A stretch of DNA of 64,000 nucleotides from an uncultured Clostridia bacterium (GTDB taxonomy: Bacteria > Bacillota > Clostridia > Oscillospirales > Oscillospiraceae): positions 1-64,000 of the forward strand of contig CAMVTO010000009.1 of the NCBI GenBank assembly GCA_947170435.1. Direction: 5' to 3'. Positions 54,570 through 64,000 of this stretch are shown here, piece by piece. Within the stretch, counting starts at the first letter, position 1; each line of letters starts with the position of its first letter. A program made the translations under genes and the position numbers. The notes below the pieces were generated by a model. That model was not told the origin of the DNA. It saw only the letters and a list, made by a program, of their open reading frames with translations, and searched no databases.

Positions 54570-55445
54570 CTACTTATCCCGCTCCTCCATGATGGTTATC
54601 AGTTCCTGCCGCATGGCGTCCAGCGGAGCACACTCGCCGTCCGTCCACAGCTGGATTTGACGCAACCCCTGATAGAGAGACATGTCGAGGCCGTTGATGG
54701 TCTTGCAGCCGACCTCCTTCGCCTCACGCAGAAAGCGCGTCTCAGGCGGATTGTAAGTGGCATCAAAGCAGATGTGCTCGGGCTTGAGAAACCTTTTGTC
54801 CACGCAGGTGGAGTCCTCCTTGCCGCTCATACCGGCGCCGGTGAGATTCAGCACGATGTCGCTCTCCGCAAGGGCCTTGGCGACAGCCGCCTCATCAGCG
54901 GCGCGCACAGGAATGCAAACACCGGGATAATACTCCTCCAGTTCCTTGCACAGCTCCTCACAGGCGGCGGAGCGGGAACAGATATAGATGCGCTTTGCGC
55001 CTTCATCCGCCAACTCAACGCAAACGCTGCGGCCGGTGCCGCCCGCGCCGAAGGAGAACATGGTCTTGCCCTTGATGCGGCAGCCCTCCTCCTTCAGGGA
55101 GCGCAGTGCGCCGTAACCGTCGGTGTTATAGCCAACCAGGAGGCCGGCTGCCGTTTTGACGACCGTGTTGCTCGAGCCAATTTTTCTGCACAGAGGATCG
55201 AAGTCATCAAGATATTTCATGACCTCAACCTTGCAGGGTTTGGTGACCGCGCAGCCCTTGAAGCCCGGCATATACCGGATGCCGTTCATAATCTCACCCA
55301 GATGCTCGTTGTCCGCTTCCGTGTATAAATAGACCATGTTGCAATGCGAGGCCTCGTAGCCCGCATTCTGCATCCGCGCCGCGAAGGACTGGCCCAGCGG
55401 CTTGCCGATCAGCGTGACAAATCTTGTATTAACGTCAATTTTCAC
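54570..55445 (-). CDS. aroE: Shikimate dehydrogenase family protein
   Basis: NADPH-dependent reduction of 3-dehydroshikimate in aromatic amino acid synthesis. 291 residues: the substrate region has GKPLGQSF and VTKPCKVEVMKYLDD (catalytic Lys in TKPCK), the cofactor region FGAGGTGRSVCVEL and the end GLDMSLYQGLRQIQLWTDGE. The motifs depart a little from standard AroE (which reads NVTxPxK), so a quinate- or other-substrate paralogue is possible. It starts at GTG after AAGGAG, only 37 bp downstream of the giant SLH gene and on the same strand. Confidence 0.85.
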   Translation of the reverse strand: MKIDVNTRFVTLIGKPLGQSFAARMQNAGYEASHCNMVYLYTEADNEHLGEIMNGIRYMPGFKGCAVTKPCKVEVMKYLDDFDPLCRKIGSSNTVVKTAAGLLVGYNTDGYGALRSLKEEGCRIKGKTMFSFGAGGTGRSVCVELADEGAKRIYICSRSAACEELCKELEEYYPGVCIPVRAADEAAVAKALAESDIVLNLTGAGMSGKEDSTCVDKRFLKPEHICFDATYNPPETRFLREAKEVGCKTINGLDMSLYQGLRQIQLWTDGECAPLDAMRQELITIMEERDK

Positions 55446-55482
55446 AGGCTGCTCTCCTTGCTCAAGGGTTTTCTGTTTGATT

Positions 55483-58400
55483 TTACTTGACGAAATCGCG
55501 GTACAGGAAGGTCACGATCTCTGCGCGGGTGCAGGTGTCGTTCGGCACGAACGTGTTCGCGGCATTCTTGCCGTTGGTGATGCCGTTTTTCACGGCCCAG
55601 CCGACGCTGCCCGCATACCAGGCGCTGCTGCTCACGTCCACAAACATGCTGCTGTCCGCTGCCGCGGCCTTCTCAAAGCGCGCGAGGAAAGCCACGATCT
55701 CCGCGCGGGTGCAGGTATCGTTCGGCACGAACGTGTCGTTTGCGTTCTTGCCGTTGGTAATCCCGTTGGCAACCGCCCAGGCGACAGCCTTCTCATAGAA
55801 GCTGCCCGCGGCCACATCCTTGAACCGCGTCGTGACTGTCACATTGGGTTCACCGGCCGCACGATACAGGAACGTGACCGCCTCGGCACGGGTACAGGTA
55901 TCATTGGGCTTGAATGTGTTTGCAGCGCCCTTGCCATTGGTGATGCCCTTGCCGACTGCCCATTCGACCGCCTTCTCATAGAAGCTGCCCACGGCCACGT
56001 CAACAAACTGTGCGGCAGCCTTGGCAAAGGTCGCGCTCACCGTGACAGGAAGCTTGGCGTCCTTGGGAATCGTGAAGCTGTAGGTGCCGTCGGCGTTTTT
56101 GGCGACCTCAATGGTCTTACCGTTGGCGTCCTTGGCGGTCACAGCGCCCACCGCATAACCCGCATTCGGAGTCGCTGTCACGGTGACCTTGTCGCCCGCC
56201 TTGGCATTGGCGTTGGAGACGGTCAGCTTGCCGTTGGTGATGCCGCTCGCGACACTCACGCCGGCGACGGCAGCCGCGCCACCGCCGCCCACAGAGCCAC
56301 CGCCCGTAGAACCGGTGCCGGTAACCGTGACGACGCGCGTATCCGCGTAATCAACGTCATCTTTTGTGTACGTTGCCGTGATGGTCGCGGTGCCCTCGCT
56401 CACGCCGGTCACCTTGCCAGTGCTGTTCACTGTGGCCACGCCTTCGTTGCTGCTGCTCCACACAGTCTTGCCGCCAACGGCAGGATGCTCGCCCGCATCC
56501 GTCACGCTCAGCGAAAGCTGGATGCTTTCACCAACCTTAACGCTGTTTGCGCCGCTGATCGTTACGATGTAGAGGCTCGTGAACACAAACTTGCCTTGGT
56601 TCACATCGGCATCACCGGAGGTCATGCTCACGGAAACACCGGGGATCAGTCGGGCTTTGATGTCCGTCTGGTCAACCGTATAGTCCGCGTTTTCGTCAGC
56701 CGCTACCATCACGGTAATCCGCTTGTCGACCGTCGTCTGATCGCCAGACGTAGGCTTCTTGAACATCCGGATCGTCACGGTATTGCCCGCAGATGTCGCG
56801 TCAACCGCCGCGTCCACAGCATCCTTGAAGGTCGTGTAGTAACGGGTCTCGCCGCCGATCACCGTCGAGGCGACAGAGCTGGACTGAAGCGAAAGCTCAA
56901 ACTCCGAGAAGCCGTACGGGTTGTTGAACTCGACGTAGTATGCGTTGTTCTCGCCCTTGATCTCAGGACGGTACTCATACCAAGTGCCATTATGATTGTG
57001 TTTGACGTAGATCGTCTGACCGACCGGGTTTTCGGCCAGCTTCTTCGCCATGCTGTTCGGGATGCCGATGGTCAGCAGGATGTTCTTGAGGCCCTCGATC
57101 TTCTTTGCGCCGCCCATCGGTACGCTGTTTTGCTCGGTCAGCGCTGTATTTTGGTCAACGCTCCCAACCGTCGCAACTTTCTGCACCTTCGGCTCAATGG
57201 AAACCCGGAAGCTGTCGCTCGCCGCCTCGTCATACTCCGTGACAGCGACATCCATGAAGACCTTATTGACCACGCTGATCGTGGGGCTTGCGTTGTCGCC
57301 GGCCGTAACGGTCGTATTTTCGCCGTCGGTCGCTACGGTGATCAGGCCGGCCTGCGCCAGCGCGGCAACCGCCTTATCCTTTTCCTGAGCCGCGGCAGCG
57401 TTGCTGATATCATCGCTCGAGCCAATCGCCTTCGTCAGAGCCTCAGTCGGAATCTCAACCGCCTTCGCGGCATTCTCCAGTTCAGTTTTGGTCGTATCCG
57501 TAACGGTGATTTCGAGCGCAACTTCGGTCTCACCCGCGGCTTCGCCGCCTCTGGCGGTCAGGTTGGTCAGATCCTCGTTCGTGATATTCGCAACAAACGT
57601 CGCACTCAGCTCAACGTCAGCATCAGGCATGGAAAAGCTGTATACAACCGCGCCCGATTCCATCTTCGTATCAACGGACGGCTTGATCGTCTGCTCGCCA
57701 TCCTTGACGTTTACCGCGACAGAGCCGATCGTATAGCCGTCGCTCGGTGTTGCGGTAAAGTATACGGCAGCGCTCTCGACCGCCTTGGCGGAAAAACCAG
57801 TGATCGAACCGTGGTTTTGTTCCGTCGCTTCGCTCACAAGAGTCGTGGTCACATTGTGCGCGGTACCGGCTTCCGCCCGGATGGTAACAGCATTGGCAGG
57901 CATTTTAAAACTGTACTTGCCGGTGCTGTCCGGCGTCAAAGTCATCCGGGAAGCTCCCTGTTCATCGCCAGTCCGAATCAGCCAGACCGACTTCAGCACG
58001 GTGTTCTGCGCCGGAGTCGCGGTAAACTCGACCGTTTCCCCGTACTCCGCCGACTGCTTGCTGCCGTCGATGGCGATCGTCGCTATCGCGCCGCTGCCGT
58101 CGGTAATTCCATAGGAGAGTTTCGCGAATGTTGCCGAAACGCTCACGTCATTCGCGGGCATTCCGAAGGAATACACGCTGTCCTTCGGCTCAAGGACGAT
58201 CGGCTCGCCGCCCGCCGGAGTGTAACTCACCGTGCCAACGGTATAGCCCGCGTTGGGCTTGACCGTCAGCGTGACTGTGTCATGATGCTTCGCTGCGTGC
58301 CGGTCCGCCGTAACGCAGCCGTTCGTGATACCGCTTGCGACACTCACGTCATAGCCCGCCTTGACAACAAAGGTGACCGCCGGGCTTGTCGCCGCCTCAT

Positions 58401-61400
58401 AGTTATCCGTAGCCGCCAGCGCGAAGGTCACGCTGGTCTGGCCGATTGTCTCACCCGCAGTGACTGCGTAAGCAAAGCTGTACGCTCCACCGTCGAGCGT
58501 CTGGCGCGCGCCCTGCGCGCCGACCACTGCCATGGCTGTGTTCCCCGAGGTCGCCGTCAGCGCCGCGGCAGCAGAACTGTCAAGGTCCGCACTGACCGTG
58601 ACGGTCACGGTCTCCTGTTCGCCCGCGCCATAGAGCGTAATCGTCTCGGACTTATTCGCCGAAATCGAGCGTGCGGCCTTGCTGATCGCCGCAACGGTCT
58701 CTGTCTGCTGACCCTCCGCCGCGAGCGTGTAGTTGCCCGCAGCCGCCCCTGCGAGCGTGAGATTGCTGATTGTGACCTTTTTGTTCGCGCCCGCGTTCGC
58801 GTCCGCAAACGCGCCGGTGGCGCTGACAGTCACCTTGTCCTGTCCGACCACGCCCGCGATGGCTGCACTGGTATAGACCAGCGTCGCGGCGGCAGTGCCG
58901 TCGTAGGTTTTGTTCTCAGCGGTGATGCCGCTGACCGTGACGGGTTTCGGGTTGATCTTAGCCTGTGCGGTCTTCTGGCTCTCCTTCGCATCCAGCGTAT
59001 AGTTCTTCGCAGCCGTTCCAGACAGCGTCAGGCCGGTGATGGTAACCGTCTTGGCGGCCACCTTTCCATCGCTGTACGCAACATTCGCGTCCGTGAACGC
59101 GCCGGCGGCGCCGGTGATCTGCAGATTCGCCTTGTCACTCTCAATGACGCCGTCGTAACCCGGATTGGTCACGTTCAGTACCGCAGCGGTTGTACCGTCA
59201 TAGGTCTTGTCTACCGCGGTGATGCCGGAGGCAATCCGAATGCCCTTCTGCGCGATTTCAAAGTCCGCGGTCTTGGTTCCCGTATAGTTGCCAGCGCCGG
59301 TGATGGTCACGGTATAGGTGCCGGCGTCCGTCGGCTCGGCGGCAGAATAGGACACGGTATAATCGGTGTCTTTGATAAGCGTCTTGTCGGCGTTTTGCAC
59401 CTTGATCGCGCTGTCCGTCACCACCGGTGCGGGCTTGTATGCCGTCTTGTCATAGGTGTGGGCGGCAATCGTCGCAATCGTCACACCGCTGATGGCCTTT
59501 GGCACGATCCTGAACGTCTTGGTACTCGTCTCGCTGCCCACGTTGGCAAGATCGTAGTTTCCGCTCGTCGCGGTGATCGTCACGGAGCCGGTCTTCGTAC
59601 CCGTGCTGACGTTGACGTTATCGACCTGATCGCCATTTGCGGTAGAGACGATCGTGTAGTCCGTTCCCTTCGCCAGCGTGCTCACCGCACCGTTGATGGT
59701 CGCCGTCACAGTAACCTCGGGGAGAATCGTCGCACCGGTGTAGGTCTGATCGGCGATGTCCGCGATCACGGGTACGATGGTCGCCTTGCTGATTGTCGCA
59801 GTGGTCTCGGTCTGCTGGCCCTCCGCCGCGAGTGTATAGTTGCCCGCGGCAGGGCCGTTGAGCGCGATGTTGCTGATGGTAACCTTCTTGGCGGTCACCT
59901 TGCCATCGCTGTACGCAACATTCGCGTCCGCGAACGCGCCGGCGGCGCTGACGGTCACCTGATCCTGCCCGACCACGCCCGCGATCGTTGCGTTGGTATA
60001 GACCAGCGTGGCAGCAGTCGTGCCGTCCCAGGTCTTATCCTCGGCAGTAATGCCGCTGACGGTGACCTCCTTTGCGGCAATGGCTGCCGCAGCTTCGGTC
60101 TGCTGGCCGCTCTGAGCAAGCGTGTAGTTGCCTGCGTCGGCACCGTCGAGCGCGAGATTGCTGATCGTGACCTGCTTGCTTGCGCCCGCGTTCGCGTCCG
60201 CAAACGCGCCGGCGGCGCTGACGGTCACCTTGTCCTGACCGACCACGCCCGCGATGGCTGCGTTGGTATAGACCAGCGTCGCGGCGGCAGTGCCGTCGTA
60301 GGTTTTATTCTCAGCGGTGATGCCGCTGACCGTGACGGGTTTCTTGCTGATCGTCCACTCCACAGGCGCCGCCGCGGTCTCGCTCAGCGCATAGTTGCTC
60401 AGTGCCGCAGTCGCGCCCGCTTCGCCCGCAGCAAGCACCGGTGTGATGGTATAAGTGCCGGCATTCTTCGGCGCACCGTCAAGACTGTCCTTGCCCGCCT
60501 GATAGGAAAGCTGAACCGTCAGTCCGCTTTCCTTCCCGGCATAGCCACTGAGCGTCGGCGTCGGTGCGATCGCCTGCCCGTTGTAGGTCGAGCCGAGCTC
60601 GCCCCATGTCAGCGTGAGCTCCTTCGGCGCGATGCTGACACCCGTAACCGTCGCAACATCAAACGTGCCGAAGGCCGCGTCATCGCCCGACGCAACAAAC
60701 TGAACCGTGAAGCCATTGCTCTTGCCCGCGGCCGGCATCGTGTCCGCTTCCTTGATGACGAACTGACCGCTGAGCTGTCTGGGCGTGCCCGTATTGATCC
60801 ACGCGCTGAGATCACTCTGCAGCGTCGCGATATCCGACCACGCGTTGCCGTAGACCTGCTTGGCCGCGTTGAGTGTCGCGACGTTCGCCGTGCTCACTTC
60901 CTGCCCGGCGGCATAATCATTGCCAAGCTTAAACTCGACTGTCTTCGCCGTGACCGCCACCGTACCGGTGACAGGCGTTGCCGCGTAGTTTGCGGCGTCC
61001 GGCGCGAACTGCCAGTCGAAGGAAATCTCCTCATTCGCCGCCACTGCCGCCAGTGCCTTGCCAAAGTCGTTCGCCGCGGCATCCCATACCACATACTCGC
61101 TGTTCGCGCCGTGCGGCCTGTACTTGAAGGTGCCCGCGACATCGTCGTTGGTCACCGTGTCCTTGAGTGTCGCCGGTGCGGAGAAACTCGTTGCGCCCTG
61201 AACCACCGTCGCAGTCGAGAAGGCGTTTTCGGCAACCGCAAGGGCCTTCGCGGCAATCGTCACGGAACCGATCGCGGTAGCCGCCATGTCTGCATAGTGC
61301 GCGTCGTCGCTCACGCTTGCAAAGACATAGTATGTACCGGCATCAACCGCATTTGTGAGATCCTCCTTGCTGTTCTCCGCCGCGCGCACTGAGACGGTGT

Positions 61401-62817
61401 GGCTGATCGTAACCCCGTCGCTCGCGGGGGTCAGAAGCGCCTTGATCGCATTGAGCTGGTTCGTCTTATTGTAGGTCAGAGACGAATCGTTGAGCTTGAA
61501 GGTCTTGGCATCTACGCTCTTGCCCGCAACGCTCACCGCCACGTCGGCTGTCTTTGTGACATTGCCCTCGGTGTAGCTGAGCGTCACCTTGGTATCGCCT
61601 TTTTGCAGCTTGTCCGCGTAATCGCCGGCCGTGCGGGCATAAACAACCTCATATCCGTTATCCTGATCGTTTTTCTGCGCGATCTCCCGCTCCGTTCCGT
61701 CGAAATAGGCAGCCGTCACGGTCAGTCCGGCCGGGGCAAACGCTTCGCCGTCGACGTAGTCCGTTTTCGTGAGCGTTCCGCCGGTCGCAATCGAGTTCAG
61801 CACCGCAGCGGCAGTCGCGGCAAACGTCTTGGTCGCGATGTAGCTGCCCTCGTCAGCGCCGGTTCCTTTCTGGAAGGTCAAGTCCGTGCCGCCCGCCAAG
61901 CCGGTCAGCGTAAAGGTCGGCTCATCCGCAAATGCCACACCCGCCTTCGGCGTCAGTGTGATCTTCGCGGTGTACGCGGTCGATCCCTTGAAGACTTCCG
62001 TGCCGCTGCTCGTGGAAAATTCGCCCGCCGTCCACGCAAGCGTTGCGGTCACGCTGTCATTGTCGGTGCTGATCGTCTTCGCGGTTTTCGCTGCGCCTGT
62101 TTTGGGCACAATATTACCCGTCAAGGCAACTGCGCCGACGGGGAACACGACGGTAGTAGACAGCTCCTCGGGGAGCGTCAGAATCGACGCGCCTGTATCA
62201 AACTGCTCTGTCGTCACGTTGTAATTGGCTATCGTAAGGACAAATACGTCTTTGTTTCCGTCTTTTCCCGTAAACAGCCGAAACTTCGCTTCCCCGCCGC
62301 CGGCAGTCTCTGCATCGGTGGCCGGTTTAAAATAAAACGTGATCGAAGGCGTGTTATACTCCTCCGCATCATCATTGTATGTGTTCACGCCTTCAGGTGA
62401 AGCGCCATTGACATATACTACACTGCTTTGTCCTACTTGAAATGTGTTGTACATAAATGAGGCAGCAGATTCAAAATTCTCACGCTTTACAGACGTGTTT
62501 TTTCTTGCCGCTCCACTGCCGGTTGTATCGACTCCTGTCACGCCGGTATCCGGTTCATAGAAGCTTGCATCATATTGCAGGCCCAGAGAATATGCTGTCA
62601 GAATCGGATTCTTTTTCGGAAGCTGCATGGTCAGCTTGATGGAAAGCTTGCCATCCTCATCCGGTTCGCTTCGTTCCATTGTCACAGCGATGCCGCTCTC
62701 CTGATCTGTGACGGTCTTGGTAAAGCCGACGTCGTCCGCAAGCGCCGTCTGAACCGGGATCATGCCCAAAATCAGCGACAGACTCAAGAGCAGCGAAAGC
62801 GTTTTTTTGATCTTCAT
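55483..62817 (-). CDS. Giant secreted SLH-anchored multidomain surface protein with cohesin-like N-terminus
   Basis: 2444 residues. A signal peptide (KTLSLLLSLSLILGMIPVQTALA) is followed by a beta domain resembling a cohesin (about residues 28-210; AYSLGLQYDASFYEP, SITFYFKPAT). Then come Ig-like and MBG-type modules, four YDG-type repeats (GITAENKTYDGTAAATLVYT) mixed with further MBG modules in the 58.6-60.35 kb region, two bacterial repeat modules (SGITNG...VTVTATPNAGY), a Big_2 Ig domain (56.3-56.6 kb) and three SLH domains at the C-terminus (55.49-56.01 kb; each with TRAE[AI]V) that bind cell-wall polymers. The third of three ATGs (62817) has the best distance from AGGAGG. It is 11 bp (from the first ATG) after the dockerin gene. 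Confidence 0.9.
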   Translation of the reverse strand: MKIKKTLSLLLSLSLILGMIPVQTALADDVGFTKTVTDQESGIAVTMERSEPDEDGKLSIKLTMQLPKKNPILTAYSLGLQYDASFYEPDTGVTGVDTTGSGAARKNTSVKRENFESAASFMYNTFQVGQSSVVYVNGASPEGVNTYNDDAEEYNTPSITFYFKPATDAETAGGGEAKFRLFTGKDGNKDVFVLTIANYNVTTEQFDTGASILTLPEELSTTVVFPVGAVALTGNIVPKTGAAKTAKTISTDNDSVTATLAWTAGEFSTSSGTEVFKGSTAYTAKITLTPKAGVAFADEPTFTLTGLAGGTDLTFQKGTGADEGSYIATKTFAATAAAVLNSIATGGTLTKTDYVDGEAFAPAGLTVTAAYFDGTEREIAQKNDQDNGYEVVYARTAGDYADKLQKGDTKVTLSYTEGNVTKTADVAVSVAGKSVDAKTFKLNDSSLTYNKTNQLNAIKALLTPASDGVTISHTVSVRAAENSKEDLTNAVDAGTYYVFASVSDDAHYADMAATAIGSVTIAAKALAVAENAFSTATVVQGATSFSAPATLKDTVTNDDVAGTFKYRPHGANSEYVVWDAAANDFGKALAAVAANEEISFDWQFAPDAANYAATPVTGTVAVTAKTVEFKLGNDYAAGQEVSTANVATLNAAKQVYGNAWSDIATLQSDLSAWINTGTPRQLSGQFVIKEADTMPAAGKSNGFTVQFVASGDDAAFGTFDVATVTGVSIAPKELTLTWGELGSTYNGQAIAPTPTLSGYAGKESGLTVQLSYQAGKDSLDGAPKNAGTYTITPVLAAGEAGATAALSNYALSETAAAPVEWTISKKPVTVSGITAENKTYDGTAAATLVYTNAAIAGVVGQDKVTVSAAGAFADANAGASKQVTISNLALDGADAGNYTLAQSGQQTEAAAAIAAKEVTVSGITAEDKTWDGTTAATLVYTNATIAGVVGQDQVTVSAAGAFADANVAYSDGKVTAKKVTISNIALNGPAAGNYTLAAEGQQTETTATISKATIVPVIADIADQTYTGATILPEVTVTATINGAVSTLAKGTDYTIVSTANGDQVDNVNVSTGTKTGSVTITATSGNYDLANVGSETSTKTFRIVPKAISGVTIATIAAHTYDKTAYKPAPVVTDSAIKVQNADKTLIKDTDYTVSYSAAEPTDAGTYTVTITGAGNYTGTKTADFEIAQKGIRIASGITAVDKTYDGTTAAVLNVTNPGYDGVIESDKANLQITGAAGAFTDANVAYSDGKVAAKTVTITGLTLSGTAAKNYTLDAKESQKTAQAKINPKPVTVSGITAENKTYDGTAAATLVYTSAAIAGVVGQDKVTVSATGAFADANAGANKKVTISNLTLAGAAAGNYTLAAEGQQTETVAAISKAARSISANKSETITLYGAGEQETVTVTVSADLDSSAAAALTATSGNTAMAVVGAQGARQTLDGGAYSFAYAVTAGETIGQTSVTFALAATDNYEAATSPAVTFVVKAGYDVSVASGITNGCVTADRHAAKHHDTVTLTVKPNAGYTVGTVSYTPAGGEPIVLEPKDSVYSFGMPANDVSVSATFAKLSYGITDGSGAIATIAIDGSKQSAEYGETVEFTATPAQNTVLKSVWLIRTGDEQGASRMTLTPDSTGKYSFKMPANAVTIRAEAGTAHNVTTTLVSEATEQNHGSITGFSAKAVESAAVYFTATPSDGYTIGSVAVNVKDGEQTIKPSVDTKMESGAVVYSFSMPDADVELSATFVANITNEDLTNLTARGGEAAGETEVALEITVTDTTKTELENAAKAVEIPTEALTKAIGSSDDISNAAAAQEKDKAVAALAQAGLITVATDGENTTVTAGDNASPTISVVNKVFMDVAVTEYDEAASDSFRVSIEPKVQKVATVGSVDQNTALTEQNSVPMGGAKKIEGLKNILLTIGIPNSMAKKLAENPVGQTIYVKHNHNGTWYEYRPEIKGENNAYYVEFNNPYGFSEFELSLQSSSVASTVIGGETRYYTTFKDAVDAAVDATSAGNTVTIRMFKKPTSGDQTTVDKRITVMVAADENADYTVDQTDIKARLIPGVSVSMTSGDADVNQGKFVFTSLYIVTISGANSVKVGESIQLSLSVTDAGEHPAVGGKTVWSSSNEGVATVNSTGKVTGVSEGTATITATYTKDDVDYADTRVVTVTGTGSTGGGSVGGGGAAAVAGVSVASGITNGKLTVSNANAKAGDKVTVTATPNAGYAVGAVTAKDANGKTIEVAKNADGTYSFTIPKDAKLPVTVSATFAKAAAQFVDVAVGSFYEKAVEWAVGKGITNGKGAANTFKPNDTCTRAEAVTFLYRAAGEPNVTVTTRFKDVAAGSFYEKAVAWAVANGITNGKNANDTFVPNDTCTRAEIVAFLARFEKAAAADSSMFVDVSSSAWYAGSVGWAVKNGITNGKNAANTFVPNDTCTRAEIVTFLYRDFVK
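58787..58947. repeat. Near-identical 161-bp repeat, copy 1 (YDG module)
   Basis: Differs from 60182-60342 at about six positions by eye. Both encode the YDG part GITAENKTYDGTAAATLVYT and the GVVGQDKVTVSA stretch. The two further YDG modules (about 58.95-59.24 and 59.8-60.07 kb) are more diverged. Confidence 0.8.
60182..60342. repeat. Near-identical 161-bp repeat, copy 2 (YDG module)
   Basis: Second copy of the repeat at 58787-58947, in the same frame and orientation. The likeness at DNA level points to recent duplication or conversion. Confidence 0.8.
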
Positions 62818-62834
62818 CATCATAGCCTCCTAAA

Positions 62835-63554
62835 TCACAATTCTGTCACATAGTTTGCAAGATAACGCATGATTTGCAGCGCATCATTCATATTGATCGA
62901 ATCCTTTGCGTCTTCGGTATAAACATTCGCCGCTTCAAAGACAATCGTAGACTCGTAATAGGCAAGAAACCGCATAATGTGCAACGCGTCATTCATGTTC
63001 ACCGTATCATCGCCATTCGCGTCGCCGGGAATAAACGGTGCGCGCGCGTACCCGTCCGCCCCGCTTGTCGGCGCGTAGCCGAGCGTCGCAGTGCGAGCCG
63101 CGTTGCCGTCGTTGCTCGTGACCCAAAGGTTCAGCAATACACCGGTCGGCAGGTCGCTTGGATATACCGTGAAGGTCAGCGCGTCATCGCTCTTTGCCTG
63201 CTGGTCAATGTATCGGATGTTCCCCTCCCGGGGCGCGTCGCCGTCAAAGAGCACCACAAGGTACTGCCTGCCCTCCTCCGCGTTGGTCACCGTGACCTGC
63301 AGAGCGTCGGTGCCGGGATAAAATCTCTCGTACACAATTTTATCCTGCGTGTCATTTGTCAGGTCCACATTCGCGGAAGCCGTTTTTTCAACGGGCGTAT
63401 ACTGCTTGTCCTGCACCGTTCCCGCTGAAATGCTCAGGCCGCTGCCGGCTGTGATATTGTAAAAGCCCGCCGCGTCTTCCGCCGCCATTGCGCTCACGCA
63501 CAGCAGTGACGCCAGCGCCATGACAAGAAACAATGGTCTCAAAATCCTCTTCAT
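62835..63554 (-). CDS. Secreted protein with C-terminal dockerin type I domain
   Basis: 239 residues. Signal peptide (MKRILRPLFLVMALASLLC...AMA), a beta-rich middle of about 150 residues of unknown function, then a dockerin made of two calcium-binding repeats: GDANGDDTVNMNDALHIMRF and a second with EDAKDSINMNDALQIMRYL. Dockerins bind cohesins. ATG follows GAAAGGAG. It lies in one operon between a truncated SLH protein and the giant SLH protein whose N-terminus looks cohesin-like. Confidence 0.9.
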   Translation of the reverse strand: MKRILRPLFLVMALASLLCVSAMAAEDAAGFYNITAGSGLSISAGTVQDKQYTPVEKTASANVDLTNDTQDKIVYERFYPGTDALQVTVTNAEEGRQYLVVLFDGDAPREGNIRYIDQQAKSDDALTFTVYPSDLPTGVLLNLWVTSNDGNAARTATLGYAPTSGADGYARAPFIPGDANGDDTVNMNDALHIMRFLAYYESTIVFEAANVYTEDAKDSINMNDALQIMRYLANYVTEL

Positions 63555-63569
63555 TTTATTGCTCCTTTC

Positions 63570-64000
63570 CTATTGCTTTTCCATGTAGCCCACGAGAATC
63601 TTTGCCAGCTGGGCACGGGTCGCCGTCACCGTCGGTCCCAACGCTTTCACGCCGGTTCCATCTATGATCCCGTGATAATACGCCCAATACATTGCCGGTT
63701 TCGCCCACGCCGCAATGTCTCCGCTGTCGGCAAACATCTCGTCGTAAGCGCCGGTCAGCATAGCCTCCATACCCAGCGGACGACCTGCGTAAGCAAAGAG
63801 AATCTTCATTGCCTCCTGTCGGGTCAGACCGTCCCTCGGCGCAAAGCCCGCGCCCTTGCCGTTGACGTAGCCCTTGCTATAGGCCCAAGCAATCGCTTTG
63901 GCGTAATAGTCGTCCGCATGGACATCCGCAAACGGCGCCGTTTCCGTGGACTCCGGTTCGCCCGCCATGCGGTATAGAACCAGCACATAATCGCCGCGCG
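63570..64000 (-). CDS. SLH-domain protein, C-terminal part (5' end beyond window)
   Basis: The frame stays open to the window edge, so the gene continues to the right. The visible 143 codons hold the end of one SLH domain (RGDYVLVLYRMAGEP), a second (FADVHADDYYAKAIAWAY ... LTRQEAMKILFAYAG) and a third (FADSGDIAAWAKPAMYWAY ... ATRAQLAKILVGY). The track's start at 63986 is an in-frame GTG (not a real start). It is 15 bp upstream of the dockerin gene. Confidence 0.9.
   Translation of the reverse strand, partial: RGDYVLVLYRMAGEPESTETAPFADVHADDYYAKAIAWAYSKGYVNGKGAGFAPRDGLTRQEAMKILFAYAGRPLGMEAMLTGAYDEMFADSGDIAAWAKPAMYWAYYHGIIDGTGVKALGPTVTATRAQLAKILVGYMEKQ

Follow-up and report, generated by a model that had tools for sequence, protein, structure and literature searches.

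We analyzed a 64,000-nucleotide stretch of DNA (hereafter the window) corresponding to bases 1-64000 of contig 9, which continues beyond it, in a 2.81 Mb draft genome, 88% complete, from a gut relative of Oscillibacter. The window contains three adjacent minus-strand genes, encoding in order a cohesin-SLH protein (gene 1), a small dockerin protein (gene 2) and a giant SLH protein (gene 3). The original prediction had placed three adjacent genes here, 11-15 bp apart, and we confirmed both their positions and their spacing, with intergenic gaps of 15 and 11 nt. Genes 2 and 3 have good ribosome-binding sites (GGAAAGGAG and AGGAGG). The only promoter-like site returned by a promoter scan lies some 50 nt upstream of gene 1, and a terminator scan found no terminator; neither result carries weight here. 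Opposite the giant gene, the plus strand contains a 1996-aa open frame (window positions 55402-61392), which is probably an antisense effect of the giant's codon use and not a gene.

Gene 1 is truncated by the window end. Its 3' part occupies positions 63570..64000 (minus strand), while the whole gene spans contig 9 63570-64700, its start at contig position 64700 lying 700 bases past the window. The full product has 376 aa and comprises a signal peptide, a cohesin, a linker and three SLH domains (Pfam E 2.9e-28). Gene 1 had been predicted to encode an SLH protein, which proved correct but incomplete, as the N-terminal half of the protein is a cohesin encoded beyond the window. This cohesin (residues 29-148; contig 64257-64616, minus strand, outside the window) matches the Pfam Cohesin family with an E-value of 2.8e-9 and a score of 37.7 bits (cut-off 24.1). 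When we combined it with six orthologs into a profile, every PDB match with an E-value up to 0.01 was a scaffoldin or a cellulosomal protein. An SLH-anchoring scaffoldin is recognized by SLH domains combined with one or more cohesins, and gene 1 encodes both. SLH domains bind a wall ligand that is made by CsaB, which we detected in this genome (267.9 bits against a cut-off of 213.1) and in nine of ten genomes with the same gene set, this one included.

Gene 2 (62835..63554, minus strand) encodes a 239-aa protein with a signal-peptide-like start and a C-terminal dockerin. An AlphaFold model of the protein contains an N-terminal beta-sandwich domain of Ig/FN3-like type (63060..63482, minus strand), with a pLDDT of about 70-88 over most strands; a fold search with the protein gave no convincing match for this front domain. 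Two calcium-loop/helix repeats define the Dockerin_1 family, and both are found in the type I dockerin of gene 2 (62859..63029, minus strand; repeats DANGDDTVNMND and TEDAKDSINMND). The Dockerin_1 score is 17.2 when the protein is scanned alone (cut-off 22.9) versus 23.8 in the genome scan, and a profile of six gene 2 family members matches solved dockerins at E 3e-11 or better. These profile matches and the signal-peptide-like start bear out the predicted secreted dockerin protein. Calcium loop 1 has its full set of calcium-binding residues (D, N, D, N, D); in loop 2, positions 1 and 5 are T and K instead of acidic residues. Positions 10 and 11 of dockerin repeats are established cohesin-specificity residues (PMC8063739), and in gene 2 this recognition pair is M-N in both repeats, giving two-fold symmetry.

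Gene 3 (55483..62823, minus strand) encodes a giant surface protein. Three in-frame ATGs are available as starts: the first gives 2446 codons and the third 2444, the latter being the length originally predicted. The predicted SLH anchoring is likewise present, in the form of three C-terminal SLH domains (55489..56007, minus strand; Pfam E 8e-30). These are preceded by a long stalk of YDG, Big_2 and Flg_new_2 beta-repeat domains (56010..62148, minus strand; Pfam) and by an N-terminal domain (residues 31-225; 62149..62733, minus strand) that had been called cohesin-like. That call is supported indirectly, through relatives of the protein, whereas its own N-terminal sequence matches no Pfam family, Cohesin included. 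Four of six aligned family members match Pfam Cohesin in this domain (best E 1.2e-5), and in whole-genome scans the third-gene N-terminus exceeds the Cohesin cut-off in two relatives (G004 and G043). Aligning a profile of twelve giant-type N-terminal domains with the gene 1 cohesins in hhalign gave a probability of 88% and an E-value of 2.9e-6, calculated for a single comparison, against 0.1% for a control alignment with the dockerin proteins. The three best PDB matches of the domain profile are cohesins or cohesin-like modules, all of them non-significant. Structure prediction of the giant's N-terminus yielded a poor AlphaFold model (pLDDT 51) from few and divergent input sequences; 13 of the 50 best fold matches of this low-confidence model are cohesins, none with an E-value under 0.001, and beta-sandwich proteins that are unrelated rank just as high. 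Taken together, we regard the domain as a divergent cohesin-like domain, an assignment that rests on homology rather than on a demonstrated fold.

We found this gene order in 11 genomes from at least two families of the order: the window's own genome, G003, G004 (Oscillibacter sp. MSJ-31), G007, G013, G024, G068, G411, G308, L063 (a goat-reticulum Oscillospiraceae MAG) and G043. Within the genus this cassette is patchy, being present in 5 of 18 genomes. Its details vary: adjacent genes overlap by 4 nt in G411, and the third gene of G043 encodes a cohesin and FN3 without SLH domains. Large open frames flank the cassette in several relatives (L049:2456-6328, L048:13638-17999 and L051:13931-15730), some with signal-peptide-like starts and with ends that seem alike; none was seen beside the operon in the window's genome. 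An extra cassette gene in G003 (L048:10432-11799) encodes two giant-type N-terminal domains followed by a dockerin, whose recognition residues are the same as those of the neighboring dockerin.

With two cohesin-related domains in the operon, the dockerin of gene 2 has two candidate partners. It could bind the N-terminal domain of the giant, leaving the gene 1 cohesin to serve something else; that domain is cohesin-related, and in almost every cassette the third gene comes straight after the dockerin gene, with another dockerin gene intervening in G003. We nevertheless consider this arrangement unlikely. The gene 1 cohesin is 42-48% identical in most orthologs, compared to 13-22% among orthologs of the giant's N-terminal domain, and this better conservation is expected of the dockerin's constant partner; moreover, the single Pfam cohesin of gene 1 suffices to explain the dockerin.

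We counted dockerins in whole genomes using Dockerin_1 at an E-value of 0.01. The window's genome contains two, that of gene 2 and one on a prophage-type amidase, and the family profile gives the same result. No dockerin-bearing glycosidase was found in this 88% complete draft genome, nor was a multi-cohesin scaffoldin, its three cohesin matches falling in three different proteins. The original prediction had proposed that the dockerin protein could dock to a wall-anchored cohesin with no cellulase nearby. These counts support that proposal, with the amendment that the clear cohesin is in gene 1 and not in the giant. In G004 and G043, one dockerin and two cohesins make up the complement of the whole genome, all of them inside the cassette. 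In G068, whose two cohesins both belong to the cassette, one dockerin match is clear and another weak. Across the 18 genomes of the genus, 7 encode both dockerin and cohesin, 11 encode neither and none encodes one only (Fisher p = 3e-5, an indicative value given the relatedness of the genomes and the incompleteness of several). In some genomes the set does not stand alone: further dockerins or cohesins occur in G007 (up to 12 dockerin matches), G308 (6 dockerin matches), G010 and G003.

These larger complements would fit a different arrangement, in which the anchor recruits dockerin proteins from elsewhere in the genome, from other cells or from phages, gene 2 being one client among them. The dockerin numbers of G007 and G308 speak for such recruitment, as does the dockerin on the prophage amidase of the window's genome. 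Against it, G004 and G043 have no other dockerin for the anchor to recruit, and the recognition residues of the prophage dockerin (A-S / A-A) differ from the M-N / M-N of gene 2. On balance, we view such wider recruitment as quite improbable.

Several further matches lie outside the cassettes. Two of the three cohesin matches in the window's genome are on contig 2, where two neighboring genes (L006:1855-8543) form a candidate second cohesin-dockerin pair. One encodes a 1423-aa protein with a 38-bit Pfam cohesin and dockerin-like C-terminal repeats too weak for profiles; the other encodes an SLH protein of 773 aa whose cohesin match, at 23.3 bits, is below threshold. The prophage-type protein, encoded on contig 22 (L007:3999-4742), is an N-acetylmuramoyl-L-alanine amidase with a C-terminal dockerin, and its gene lies downstream of a collagen-like gene of tail-fibre type, near an integrase. 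Two phage endolysins similar to this amidase carry CW_7 or glucosaminidase domains and no dockerin. We set aside a phage-lysin link to the operon, given these dockerin-free relatives and the differing recognition residues; a phage lysin that used a dockerin for surface targeting would be unusual in its own right. Dockerin matches also fall within open frames roughly 9,000 residues long in G003 (contig 42, 41493-41657) and G411 (contig 12, 8167-8331).

We compared the recognition residues of the two repeats across ten cassette dockerins, including the extra one of G003; we positioned the repeats by eye, and the sequences are not wholly independent. Within a single protein, the two repeats agree at positions 10 and 11 in 85% of comparisons, versus 16% for repeats of different proteins, and none of 20,000 permutations reached the observed value. 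Dropping the second dockerin of G003 changes nothing, and an eleventh dockerin, read in G308 after the test, fits the pattern with G-T-L in both repeats. The dockerin of G013, whose first loop is broken, is an exception and was excluded from the test. The calcium loops of the cassette dockerins are much less symmetric than the recognition residues, at 45%. At sites where the repeats encode identical amino acids, 48% of codons are shared, compared to 38% expected from codon use; because this is near random, the symmetry is poorly explained by recent duplication or conversion. It is well explained by selection maintaining two equal dockerin faces, and is the pattern that a working dual-binding dockerin would predict. 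Whether dockerin symmetry is functional or a mere trace of gene duplication has been raised as a question (PMC8063739), and it is touched by our finding that the two faces diverge in concert while synonymous sites are close to saturation.

The matched faces also bear on the idea that the dockerin is a calcium-stabilized end piece and nothing more, with no docking involved. The weak Pfam score of the gene 2 dockerin would suit such a role. As an end piece, however, it would leave both the matching face residues and the linkage to cohesin genes without a reason, and we judge this reading to be very improbable. Descent from a cellulosome that has lost its enzymes is another conceivable origin of the operon: one dockerin loop is degenerate, and the anchor resembles the single-cohesin SLH-anchoring scaffoldins, a described class (PMC5141474; PMC11557425). 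Such a relic would not be expected to persist without enzymes across 11 genomes belonging to two or more families, nor to carry dockerin recognition faces that look selected, and we regard this origin as highly unlikely.

Given a cohesin in gene 1, a dockerin in gene 2 and a cohesin-related N-terminus in gene 3, we consider it likely that the operon builds a small, enzyme-free cohesin-dockerin assembly on the cell wall. Gene 1 would be a short wall anchor presenting one cohesin near the wall, and gene 3 a long stalk, anchored by its C-terminal SLH domains, with another cohesin-like domain, a divergent one, at the opposite tip. Gene 2 would act as a secreted adaptor in which the beta-sandwich is coupled to a dockerin predicted to bind calcium and to offer two equivalent faces. 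This dockerin would plug, in a calcium-dependent manner, into the gene 1 cohesin, and perhaps also into that of gene 3, thereby fixing the beta-sandwich domain to the surface, either near the wall or at the stalk tip. The purpose may be adhesion or ordering of the surface layer, both of which are guesses. We infer the binding itself, the choice of partner and the role of the front domain, with the cohesin of gene 1 as the most likely partner.

This enzyme-free assembly is supported by the gene order in 11 genomes, the scarcity of other dockerins, the co-occurrence of dockerins and cohesins, the matched faces and the presence of CsaB. It is weakened by the acids missing from loop 2, the loop lost in G013, the giant's lack of a Pfam match and the extra dockerins and cohesins of other genomes. 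More tentatively, one symmetric plug with two sockets at different heights, near the wall in gene 1 and at the stalk tip in gene 3, might form a minimal closed system whose role is purely structural or adhesive, with no connection to polysaccharide digestion.

Non-cellulosomal cohesins and dockerins have long been on record, and no agreed role has emerged for them. In Oscillibacter sp. MSJ-31, a named genome that is not labeled as a metagenome assembly, a complement of one dockerin and two cohesins makes their role directly testable. We found no prior description of the three-gene operon in the literature searched, an absence that is weak evidence; the component parts are known, and their enzyme-free arrangement in an operon looks new.

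Among known systems, ScaD of Clostridium thermocellum carries SLH domains. Gene 1 is like ScaD in its signal peptide, one cohesin and SLH domains, which present a single cohesin at the wall. The single cohesin of ScaD holds enzymes directly (PMC5141474), and the proteins it takes are dockerin-bearing cellulosomal enzymes, whereas the putative client of gene 1, encoded in the same operon, is small and non-enzymatic. The sole non-phage dockerin found in the window's genome is that of the gene 2 protein, unlike the enzyme-borne dockerins of C. thermocellum. The cohesin-like module of Clostridium perfringens NagJ (PDB 2jh2, 2ozn), to which the giant's N-terminus has a weak, non-significant profile match, is likewise non-cellulosomal, but it sits on a glycosidase while the giant's domain sits on an SLH stalk. 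Cohesins and dockerins occur outside cellulosomes according to Peer et al. 2009, as cited in PMC2930009, where it is suggested that non-cellulosomal cohesin-dockerin interactions may structure the cell surface. Our operon likewise combines a cohesin and a dockerin outside a cellulosome. Unlike those cases, it is a conserved gene set whose wall-anchor design is clear and which, in some genomes, has nothing else of its kind beside it.
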